Below are positions 25,641 to 34,440 of a stretch of 64,000 nucleotides of DNA, piece after piece. Under the pieces are notes generated by a model. The model was not told where the DNA came from. It was given only the letters and a program-made list of their open reading frames with translations, and searched no databases. This DNA comes from Flavobacterium sp. TR2 (GTDB lineage Bacteria; Bacteroidota; Bacteroidia; Flavobacteriales; Flavobacteriaceae): NCBI RefSeq assembly GCF_025252405.1, contig NZ_CP104307.1, positions 620,001 to 684,000 on the forward strand. The letters run 5' to 3'. The stretch's first letter is position 1. Each line of letters opens with the position of its first letter. The translations under genes and the position numbers were made by a program.

Positions 25641-25715
25641 GGGGGATTAGCTCATTTGGCTAGAGCGTCCCGATGAAAAATCGGGAAGGCGACAGTTCGA
25701 ATTTTCTTTGCTCAA
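25641..25715 (+). pseudogene. Degenerate tRNA-Ala-like copy 1
   Basis: The first 25 bases, through acceptor 5' strand and D arm (GGGGGATTAGCTCATTTGGC...), are identical to the real tRNA-Ala at 25897. The anticodon arm is replaced by a TCCCGAT/ATCGGGA hairpin with a GAAAA loop, so there is no 7-base anticodon loop. The T-arm keeps GTTCGAAT but the T-stem and 3' acceptor strand do not pair. It cannot be a working tRNA. Confidence 0.75.
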
Positions 25716-25725
25716 CAAAAATAAA

Positions 25726-25800
25726 GGGGGATTAGCTCATTTGGCTAGAGTATCCCGATAAAAAATCGGGAAGGCGACAGTTCGAATTTTCTTTGCTCAA
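25726..25800 (+). pseudogene. Degenerate tRNA-Ala-like copy 2
   Basis: Begins exactly 85 bases after copy 1 and is almost identical to it, including the decayed 3' part and the CTCAACAAAAATAAA spacer. It differs at three bases: AGTATCCC instead of AGCGTCCC before the hairpin, and TAAAA instead of GAAAA in the loop. The AGTA agrees with the intact tRNA and with the tails at 26280 and 26644. Confidence 0.75.
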
Positions 25801-25810
25801 CAAAAATAAA

Positions 25811-25885
25811 GGGGGATTAGCTCATTTGGCTAGAGCGTCCCGATGAAAAATCGGGAAGGCGACAGTTCGAATTTTCTTTGCTCAA
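25811..25885 (+). pseudogene. Degenerate tRNA-Ala-like copy 3
   Basis: Begins 85 bases after copy 2. It is identical to copy 1 over the tRNA-like part and differs only by one extra base in the spacer before the intact tRNA. The shared decay of all three copies shows that they multiplied after losing tRNA function. Confidence 0.75.
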
Positions 25886-25896
25886 CAAAAAACAAA

Positions 25897-25970
25897 GGGG
25901 GATTAGCTCATTTGGCTAGAGTACTTGCCTGGCAGGCAAGGGGTGACCGGTTCGAATCCGGTATTCTCCA
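25897..25970 (+). tRNA. tRNA-Ala (anticodon GGC)
   Basis: A complete 74-base tRNA. The acceptor stem GGGGGAT pairs with ATTCTCC (with G-T pairs, among them the G3-U70 pair that marks tRNA-Ala), the discriminator is A, and CCA is not encoded. The anticodon arm is CTTGC-CTGGCAG-GCAAG with anticodon GGC. The T-arm is ACCGG-TTCGAAT-CCGGT. It is the fourth unit of an 85-base tandem array and the only intact one. A terminator follows at 25983. Confidence 0.95.
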
Positions 25971-25982
25971 CAAATAATTCAA

Positions 25983-26024
25983 AAATACCCAAACAGATAG
26001 TAATTCTGCTTGGGTATTTTTTTT
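25983..26024 (+). terminator. Intrinsic terminator after tRNA-Ala (copy 1 of 3)
   Basis: AATACCCAAACAGA pairs with TCTGCTTGGGTATT (one A-C mismatch), followed by a run of T. The same structure recurs at about 26347 and 26713. It ends 13 bases before the first GIY-YIG start codon. Confidence 0.85.
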
Positions 26025-26036
26025 AGTATCCATTTT

Positions 26037-26285
26037 ATGTTTTATATCTACATCATATATTCAGAAACATTAGACAAATACTATGTCGGTTCATCTCAAA
26101 ATATCAAACAACGTTTAGAAGATCATTTAAATAGCAGAAGCAAATTCACAAAAGCTGCGAAAGATTGGGTGTTAAAATACTCTGAAACCTTTACTACAAG
26201 AAGTGAAGCTTATCAAAGAGAATTACAGATAAAAAAAATGAAAAGCCGAAAATATATTGAAAACCTAATACAAACAAAAGGCTAG
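26037..26285 (+). CDS. GIY-YIG nuclease-family protein, copy 1
   Basis: An 82-residue single-domain GIY-YIG protein of the short UPF0213/YhbQ-like kind. The GIY and YIG motifs read YIYIIYS and YYVGSS, followed by the Arg of KQRLEDH and the catalytic-type Glu in YQRELQIKKMKSRKYIE. The ATG at 26037 is preferred; the longer frame begins with TTG inside the terminator. The last codon and stop (GGC TAG) are the G18-G19 and following bases of a tRNA D-loop, so the coding region runs into a tRNA-like tail. It is identical in sequence to the copy at 26401. Confidence 0.85.
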   Translation: MFYIYIIYSETLDKYYVGSSQNIKQRLEDHLNSRSKFTKAAKDWVLKYSETFTTRSEAYQRELQIKKMKSRKYIENLIQTKG

Positions 26286-26335
26286 AGTATCCCGATGCAT
26301 CGGGAAGGTGACCGGTTCGAATCCGGTATTCTCCA
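26280..26335 (+). other. tRNA-Ala-like 3' part fused to GIY-YIG copy 1
   Basis: From GGCTAGAGTA in the D-arm to the final CTCCA this matches tRNA-Ala, except that the anticodon arm is TCCCGATGCATCGGGA, a hairpin without a 7-base anticodon loop. T-stem, T-loop and 3' acceptor strand are identical to the intact tRNA. The acceptor 5' strand and D-stem are absent, replaced by the nuclease gene. Confidence 0.8.
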
Positions 26336-26346
26336 CAAATAATTAA

Positions 26347-26389
26347 AAATACCCAAACAGATAGTAATTCTGCTTGGGTATTTTTTTTA
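26347..26389 (+). terminator. Intrinsic terminator (copy 2 of 3)
   Basis: Same hairpin and T-run as at 25983, after the first tRNA-like tail. One base is missing in the preceding spacer (AATTAAAAAT instead of AATTCAAAAAT). Confidence 0.8.
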
Positions 26390-26400
26390 GTATCCATTTT

Positions 26401-26649
26401 ATGTTTTATATCTACATCATATATTCAGAAACATTAGACAAATACTATGTCGGTTCATCTCAAAATATCAAACAACGTTTAGAAGATCATTTAAATAGCA
26501 GAAGCAAATTCACAAAAGCTGCGAAAGATTGGGTGTTAAAATACTCTGAAACCTTTACTACAAGAAGTGAAGCTTATCAAAGAGAATTACAGATAAAAAA
26601 AATGAAAAGCCGAAAATATATTGAAAACCTAATACAAACAAAAGGCTAG
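26401..26649 (+). CDS. GIY-YIG nuclease-family protein, copy 2
   Basis: Exact duplicate of the gene at 26037, one 364-base unit downstream; I see no base difference in the coding region. The stop codon again falls in a tRNA D-loop sequence. The perfect identity means a recent duplication or frequent gene conversion. Whether either copy is expressed is unclear, since each is preceded by a terminator and no -7 box was found. Confidence 0.85.
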   Translation: MFYIYIIYSETLDKYYVGSSQNIKQRLEDHLNSRSKFTKAAKDWVLKYSETFTTRSEAYQRELQIKKMKSRKYIENLIQTKG

Positions 26650-26699
26650 AGTATCCCGATGCATCGGGAAGGTGATCGGTTCGAATCCGATATTCTCCA
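26644..26699 (+). other. tRNA-Ala-like 3' part fused to GIY-YIG copy 2
   Basis: Same as the tail at 26280 apart from two bases: the T-stem is ATCGG/CCGAT instead of ACCGG/CCGGT. The two changes pair with each other (position 50 with 64), so the stem is kept. Confidence 0.8.
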
Positions 26700-26712
26700 C
26701 AAATAATTCAAA

Positions 26713-26755
26713 AATACCCAAACAGATAGTAATTCTGCTTGGGTATTTTTTTTTA
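26713..26755 (+). terminator. Intrinsic terminator (copy 3 of 3)
   Basis: Third copy of the AATACCC hairpin with T-run, ending the array's conserved part. Confidence 0.8.
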
Positions 26756-26763
26756 CACATTCT

Positions 26764-26812
26764 ATGTTTTATAGCATATGCTCAGAAACCTTAGACAAAA
26801 ACCTGTCGGGTT
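26764..26812 (+). pseudogene. Stump of a third GIY-YIG gene
   Basis: ATGTTTTAT, a gap of about 6 bases, then AGCATATGCTCAGAAACCTTAGACAAAAAC...GTCGG aligns with codons 1-17 of the two intact copies (MFYIYIIYSETLDKYYVG). After GTCGG the similarity stops and a word of another interspersed repeat (CCTGTCGGGTTT) begins. It is a truncated remnant. Confidence 0.7.
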
Positions 26813-34424: not shown

Positions 34425-34440
34425 TCCCGAAGTTTCGGGA
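34425..34440. repeat. Short hairpin TCCCGAA/TTCGGGA
   Basis: A 7-base perfect palindrome around GT, 33 bases before the hybrid kinase start. The same TCCCGA/TCGGGA core appears in the tRNA-like elements of 25.6-26.7 kb. Confidence 0.4.

Follow-up and report, generated by a model that had tools for sequence, protein, structure and literature searches.

The genome of Flavobacterium sp. TR2 harbors, within a stretch of 64,000 nucleotides (nt) referred to here as the window (positions 620,001 to 684,000 of contig NZ_CP104307.1), an array of tRNA-derived units that carry a small gene for a nuclease of the GIY-YIG superfamily. An initial annotation, made from the letters of this DNA alone, had named as its parts three degenerate 85-base tRNA copies, one intact tRNA-Ala(GGC) gene, two GIY-YIG units and a cut-off third, and all of these were located, as listed below by position in the window.

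25641..25717, plus strand: pseudo-tRNA-Ala copy 1, with an intact 5' half, TCCCGATGAAAAATCGGGA replacing the anticodon arm, and a degenerate 3' half
25726..25802, plus strand: pseudo-tRNA-Ala copy 2, 5' of the intact tRNA, with the palindrome TCCCGATAAAAAATCGGGA
25811..25887, plus strand: pseudo-tRNA-Ala copy 3, 5' of the intact tRNA
25897..25971, plus strand: intact tRNA-Ala(GGC) (ARAGORN; Rfam 57.3 bits)
25981..26021, plus strand: terminator-like hairpin with T run, left end of unit 1 (terminator scan and folding; the scanner lists its symmetric stem on the minus strand only)
26037..26285, plus strand: GIY-YIG nuclease gene 1 (82 amino acids, aa), stop codon TAG inside the D-loop word
26280..26336, plus strand: tRNA 3' tail 1, from the D-loop to CCAC, anticodon arm replaced by a palindrome at 26290-26305
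26345..26385, plus strand: terminator-like hairpin of unit 2 (terminator scan)
26401..26649, plus strand: GIY-YIG nuclease gene 2, identical to gene 1
26644..26700, plus strand: tRNA 3' tail 2, palindrome at 26654-26669, T stem differing from tail 1 by a compensated pair
26710..26750, plus strand: third terminator-like hairpin (terminator scan)
26764..26802, plus strand: stump of a third, diverged GIY-YIG gene (82% over 26770-26802; start and end read by eye)

Each unit is ordered as terminator, 82-aa GIY-YIG gene and tRNA 3' tail. Units 1 and 2 measure 365 and 364 nt, respectively, and are identical in 362 of 365 aligned columns, the differences amounting to one indel and one compensated pair in the T stem, while their reading frames of 249 nt are identical. 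Both frames end at the TAG of GGCTAGAG and run on into the tRNA 3' part, which is followed by a terminator-type hairpin with a T run (folding z -6.7), so that the junction described initially is confirmed. The third nuclease copy is truncated after about 17 codons and fused to sequence that can be aligned with the right arm of the native terminator in a relative. The copies inside the array are tandem duplicates and not separate insertions. Upstream of the intact tRNA, the three 85-nt repeats (25641-25884) are mutually 97-100% alike in a self-comparison, reach weak Rfam tRNA scores of 19.3-22.7 bits against a gathering score of 29 bits, and fold little better than shuffled sequences (z about -1, compared with -2 for the intact tRNA). 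Since the space separating the tRNA from the nuclease gene contains little besides the terminator, expression of the nuclease probably relies on terminator read-through. Six names of Rfam microRNA and small RNA families that came up around the terminator hairpin were discarded as weak matches below their gathering scores.

A feature overlooked in the initial annotation is the fate of the anticodon arm: in all five degenerate tRNA copies its place is taken by a perfect palindrome, TCCCGAT..ATCGGGA. The pattern TCCCGAN{2,10}TCGGGA has six matches in the window, five of them in the array, and none in 100 shuffles; the sixth is a lone dispersed copy, TCCCGAAGTTTCGGGA, at 34425-34440, outside the tRNA locus. 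In the tails, the T loop is a second palindrome site, as seen in seven listed tRNA-Ala loci (one of them imperfect) and at the tRNA-Pro locus of the source genome described below. Thus, the displaced tRNA copy has its anticodon arm and sometimes its T loop replaced by palindrome, while the intact tRNA retains both. Throughout the relatives, a YCCGA..TCGGR palindrome lies at most 150 nt downstream in 131 of 201 distinct gene copies, 100 of which also feature the T-loop word; the 201 copies include loci selected by the palindrome pattern, and with repeats the figures are 159 and 122 of 239. Both palindrome and T-loop word occurred in three of 3916 control stretches of the window.

The 82-aa protein belongs to the GIY-YIG superfamily, scoring 65.6 bits against PF01541 (cut-off 22.6), and falls short of the group I intron endonuclease family TIGR01453 (32 bits, cut-off 56.05). 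Residues Y5, Y16, R26, H30 and E62, which presumably fill the catalytic roles of the conserved Tyr, Tyr, Arg, His and Glu in GIY-YIG nucleases, are invariant across nine diverse members; the first four are also invariant in 35 closer members, with E62 nearly so. A structure model has a mean predicted local distance difference test (pLDDT) score of 86.6, and the best PDB matches by sequence are 1YWL (E 0.0003) and 1ZG2 (E 0.0016), members of the UPF0213 or stand-alone GIY-YIG class. These proteins share the single-domain length class of the window nuclease, and we know of no linkage of them to tRNA genes. At the tRNA-Ala locus, the median ratio of nonsynonymous to synonymous substitution (dN/dS) among distinct proteins is 0.089 (460 usable of 552 pairs), which indicates that the nuclease is under strong purifying selection. 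The list of open frames contains no integrase or recombinase of the kind found in integrative elements: the only other frame in the units is an antisense frame of 67 aa, too short for an integrase as judged from the list, the frame itself being unscanned.

A close association of this nuclease with tRNA genes emerged from the best 80 of 143 closest protein relatives in named genomes, which were chosen regardless of tRNAs and stem from Flavobacterium, Algibacter, Flagellimonas, Algoriphagus, Chitinophagaceae, Bacteroidales, Ignavibacteria and others. The gene starts no more than 130 nt downstream of an intact tRNA on the same strand in 65 of the 80, and at 153-1166 nt from one in four others; seven are without a tRNA, all starting at most 702 nt from the start of the stored stretch, and four were removed by the domain filter. 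Chance would yield about 0.1 in 76, assuming 64 tRNAs per 5.1 Mb. The adjacent tRNAs of the 69 loci comprise nine types (Ala 41, Lys 12, Met 7, Val 3, Arg 2, and Ser, Asn, Asp and Ile one each), the Ile call being doubtful as it overlaps the nuclease gene. Likewise, 30 loci sampled at the level of the order include 20 with a tRNA within 130 nt, four with one farther away, one that was filtered out and five without a tRNA. Over the 104 distinct copies within 130 nt, the median distance between tRNA and gene is 52 nt. Moreover, the tail mostly matches its neighbor: when 84 loci (one genome counted twice, one further locus being too short) were assigned against 30 tRNA types with same-locus tRNAs excluded, the tail type equaled the adjacent tRNA in 58 loci, was another in four, two of which name another isoacceptor of the same amino acid, and was unrecognizable by its low score in 22; the library is richer in Ala entries, which favors Ala calls.

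The arrangement recurs within the source genome and across Bacteroidota. The initial annotation had held that the layout's absence elsewhere, together with simple tandem duplication, would speak against a mobile element; many tRNA genes carry the layout. Seven GIY-YIG genes (Pfam PF01541) are found in the source genome, two of them in the window array and one at tRNA-Val(TAC) with the palindrome TTCCGAT..ATCGGAA, while no tRNA lies within 1.5 kb of the remaining four. At the tRNA-Val(TAC) nuclease unit (genome positions 3598055-3599465; L004), several pseudo-copies lie between two intact tRNA-Val genes, and two of these pseudo-copies are called tRNA-Lys(TTT) by ARAGORN. The tRNA-Pro(TGG) of the same genome (L143:1501-1720) is followed by a unit that lacks the nuclease gene and has one palindrome in its anticodon arm and another in its T loop. 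Among Flavobacterium genomes, 84 of 299 match the combined palindrome and T-loop pattern, a count to which genuine tRNA-Asp genes and a few places of no relation contribute and which therefore exceeds the number of genomes with units; 57 stretches were taken from among the matches listed, with tRNA-Asp and others excluded, genuine tRNA-Asp anticodon arms having proved to be false positives of the pattern. Nuclease units in this genus occur at tRNA-Ala(GGC), Arg(TCT), Pro(TGG) and Val(TAC).

A profile search matched 88 of 246 genomes of the order at E 1e-8, with arrays placed after tRNA-Phe, Asp, Met, Asn and Arg genes. The longest array beside an intact tRNA holds seven nuclease genes (L096), and another stretch contains eight, with no intact tRNA in the part taken (L198); gene-less units of about 110-150 nt form arrays of their own (e.g., L080, L087 and L112). 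Several deviating loci were noted as well. In a seven-unit tRNA-Phe array (L196:4100-5900), a transposase-like stretch seems, by eye, to interrupt the first nuclease gene. At L195, a nuclease gene is directly followed by an apparently complete tRNA-Pro(TGG) at the contig end, which reverses the usual order. In L207 and L213, other GIY-YIG genes form repeated pairs that are followed by different repeats and are not accompanied by a tRNA in the stretch, one repeat of L213 being built on TGCTGAA/TTCAGCA; these two are possibly a separate palindrome-linked GIY-YIG group.

The comparison of occupied and empty loci, proposed with the initial annotation, was informative at tRNA-Ala, where 46 loci are occupied and 21 are without a unit after the tRNA by a pattern-based count; some of the 21 (e.g., L093 and L120) carry sequence resembling the element terminator behind the tRNA and are probably decayed sites, not virgin ones, and L031 has an assembly gap upstream. 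A tail was recognized in 31 of the 46 occupied loci. In 18 of these 31, at least 200 nt after the tail align with a unit-less locus, and in six of the 18 the alignment begins at most three bases from the tRNA end on both sides: L016 against L019 (86% over 499 nt), L180 against L019 (83%), L237 against L031 (86%), and L113, L241 and L012 against L074 (76%, 73% and 67%, respectively). These six base-readable loci thus present a clean insertion that leaves the tRNA whole. Since they align with unit-less loci from the tail end onwards, the tail appears to be the displaced native 3' end, and the intact tRNA would therefore have received a new 3' end; as the tail occupies the position of the native 3' end, insertion would have taken place inside the tRNA or its 3' repeat.

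Movement between genomes is indicated by one pair of loci. L016 and L180 share a terminator identical in 60 of 60 bases and a gene identical at 97.5%, compared with 79-86% in the flanks, and the synonymous difference is 0.042 in the nuclease gene versus 0.637 in the neighboring gene for enoyl-CoA hydratase. With a near-identical element amid diverged flanking genes in two species, this is a clear case of horizontal transfer. Hence, occupied and empty alleles at tRNA-Ala and horizontal spread in one pair, both hallmarks of free-standing homing, were found. In addition, a nuclease lineage seldom switches its tRNA type or its palindrome type. In a quickly built tree of 187 distinct genes (38 lacking an assigned tRNA, 69 lacking a classed palindrome), the tRNA type changes 18 times over 149 genes and 12 types, compared with a shuffled minimum of 83, and the palindrome type changes nine times over 118 genes and eight types, compared with a shuffled minimum of 27.

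Three known systems lend themselves to comparison. Integrative elements with attP in a tRNA 3' end bring along a 3' part that keeps the tRNA whole and leave a 3' repeat at their far end. The window units likewise keep the tRNA whole and repeat its 3' end at the far end, but no integrase was seen in them, they total about 364 nt, and the anticodon arm of the displaced copy is replaced.

The second system comprises the mobile ORF elements (mORFs) of fungal mitochondria, described for Glomus atp6, atp9, cox2 and nad3 and for Allomyces atp6, in which a gene that carries an inserted 3' end is followed first by the endonuclease gene and then by the native 3' end in its displaced position (PMC3630166, consulted in part, as holds for all statements on mORFs here). 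In the window array, too, the nuclease gene lies between a complete tRNA and a displaced 3' end, the native flank being base-exact in six of 31 tRNA-Ala loci; common to both are the endonuclease gene at the 3' end of a conserved gene and the element-supplied new 3' end that keeps this gene whole. The mORFs differ in targeting mitochondrial protein genes, whereas the window elements target bacterial chromosomal tRNA genes, and in the atp6 example they encode a LAGLIDADG enzyme instead of a bare 82-aa GIY-YIG domain. As far as the consulted part of that account goes, the palindrome replacing the anticodon arm and the tandem arrays are found in the window elements only.

The third system is SegB of phages T4 and T6, a free-standing GIY-YIG homing endonuclease that cuts inside tRNA genes and is linked to many tRNA types; tandem amplification of tRNA and nuclease gene is reported, with short homology suggested as the route (PMC13096335, likewise consulted in part). 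SegB and the window protein have in common the GIY-YIG domain, the class of tRNA-gene targets and tandem amplification, and the SegB motif RAWTSGAAC (PMC13096335), taken in complement, matches the T loop of the tRNA, GTTCGAATC, in a comparison made in the present analysis. SegB differs in being phage-borne, while the window protein is a single domain of 82 aa; the displaced tRNA 3' tail and the palindrome belong to the window elements, none being described for SegB in the consulted part of PMC13096335. The best reading, by analogy, is that the window element would work like mORFs and SegB, a likeness of layout and target that does not imply shared descent beyond the GIY-YIG domain. No description of such tRNA-linked nuclease elements in bacteria was found in the library of open-licence papers that was searched.

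Taken together, we consider it probable, though well short of certain, that the units are minimal intronless homing elements that target tRNA genes. In this process, the 82-aa GIY-YIG protein would cut a unit-free copy of its tRNA gene, and repair would copy the occupied allele into the break. The resulting layout is the one encountered: a whole tRNA, terminator, nuclease gene, D-arm remnant, palindrome and displaced tRNA 3' end on the native flank. The likely role of the palindrome is to mark or abolish the nuclease site in the displaced copy, and the direct repeats of the tRNA 3' end may let the unit expand and contract in tandem. For the mobile element that spares its tRNA, as suggested initially, recurrence at many tRNA genes, the six clean insertions at tRNA-Ala and the one transfer thus provide support; of the proposed likeness to att-site integration, the part that stands is the tRNA being kept whole, while a homing route by break and copy fits better than integration.

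Several observations weigh against homing. A clear transfer is seen in only one of 1081 non-independent pairs from 47 loci, and over the same pairs the divergence of the nuclease gene correlates with that of the neighboring gene (r = 0.51); some genomes are represented twice among the 47 loci (13 pairs of this kind occur in a set of 55 Ala loci), which adds identical pairs. As nuclease divergence tracks that of the neighbor, inheritance at the Ala locus looks mostly vertical from these sequences. At 25 of the 31 occupied Ala loci with a tail, the alignment with unit-less loci begins further in or is lacking, and compensated T-stem alleles differ between the intact and the displaced 3' end in only six of the 23 Ala loci whose T stem is readable in both. 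For Val, Arg and Pro, the comparison with empty sites was not clear-cut, since units are also present in several of the loci taken to be empty. Moreover, 5' pseudo-tRNA copies occur in 28 of the 46 occupied and six of the 21 other Ala loci, and one simple insertion fails to account for them. Cleavage of tRNA genes by the 82-aa protein is putative, and the intact tRNA should itself stay a target of the nuclease, which leaves the escape of the host unexplained. As to vehicles, viral contigs gave no confirmed relative among 19 candidate stretches and no plasmid matched the element, so that a phage or plasmid vehicle is unsupported within the reach and sensitivity of the viral-contig and plasmid collections.

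An unlikely alternative, albeit one with a real chance of being right, is that the nuclease is a SegB-like amplifier kept for the host: breaks at the tRNA locus would lead to tandem amplification of tRNA and pseudo-tRNA units, with mobility being secondary and the possible benefit lying in resisting or decoying tRNA-cutting toxins and defences. Tandem arrays that reach seven genes next to an intact tRNA and eight in L198 agree with it, as do the strong purifying selection and the precedent of phage SegB, likewise a GIY-YIG protein, which amplifies tRNA and segB in tandem (PMC13096335). On the other hand, the repeated unit holds a broken tRNA part and no working tRNA, and its repetition would therefore leave the tRNA dose unraised; the 5' copies in the window fold poorly, and single-unit loci are common.

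Quite unlikely is a spreading of palindromes in the manner of repetitive extragenic palindromes (REP) and their associated tyrosine transposases (RAYT), according to which the GIY-YIG protein would move the palindrome around the genome and tRNA loci would be one landing place among others. The TCCCGA palindrome is indeed dispersed, with 90 copies in the source genome versus three for a reversed control, and 1171 versus 47 in 37 Flavobacterium genomes; its density is 10.1/Mb in the 22 genomes with the nuclease gene versus 4.1/Mb in the 15 without (p = 0.005, kinship uncorrected). The palindromes in the T loops of tails fit as well, and so do G335, G530 and G398, whose units carry TCCGCC..GGCGGA, a form that is also commoner genome-wide (31, 32 and 25 copies versus 16, 3 and 6 of TCCCGA). 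Contrary to this account, two genomes without the gene have more than 40 copies and three with it have at most seven, the Met-type units of G417 carry TCCGCC in five copies that are all confined to the array while the dispersed palindrome of that genome is TCCCGA (73 copies), and the associated gene encodes a GIY-YIG protein in place of a tyrosine transposase.

Finally, plain tandem duplication of a tRNA beside a resident small nuclease gene by unequal crossing-over, without mobility of its own, is very unlikely as a full account: the near-identity of the two units, their flanking direct repeats and the broad tracking of the neighboring gene fit it, and it accounts for the copy number within the array, but not for the element, being contradicted by the clean insertions in six cases, by recurrence at many tRNA types and by transfer between diverged species.

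To return to homing, the distribution of palindromes bears on how a target might be recognized. The TCCCGA palindrome is common to Ala, Arg, Val, Pro, Ser, Lys, Met and Asp types and to Bacteroidota and Ignavibacteriota, while more distant nuclease lineages have others, namely TCCGCC..GGCGGA (Met), CCCCGA or CTCCGA forms (Asn, Phe) and TCTCGTC..GACGAGA (Asp). Whether the palindrome is tied to the nuclease or to the host receives a mixed answer, as G417 favors the nuclease and G335, G530 and G398 fit either. A more far-reaching proposal, which we regard as possible yet doubtful, is that every nuclease lineage has a palindrome of its own, which, placed in the anticodon arm and at times in the T loop of the displaced tRNA, would serve as the cognate recognition or immunity mark, and that the units form a Bacteroidota-wide class of mini-elements with a two-part homing, coded by sequence and hairpin, between tRNA specificities, in which the entered tRNA is always restored.

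In summary, the units have the appearance of a gene of undescribed kind that enters tRNA genes, leaves them unbroken and spreads in this way; to our knowledge, they would constitute the smallest nuclease-borne mobile element at bacterial chromosomal tRNA genes. For annotation, they call for caution, given that ARAGORN labels some palindrome copies as tRNA-Lys, -Phe, -Ile or -Gly. Because nuclease lineage, tRNA type and palindrome go together in a nearly fixed manner, it can be tested directly how a bare GIY-YIG domain recognizes its target. If true, the homing reading would extend the gene-restoring strategy of fungal mitochondrial mORFs to bacteria, and it may account for the large number of small GIY-YIG proteins that are encoded beside tRNA genes in Bacteroidota.

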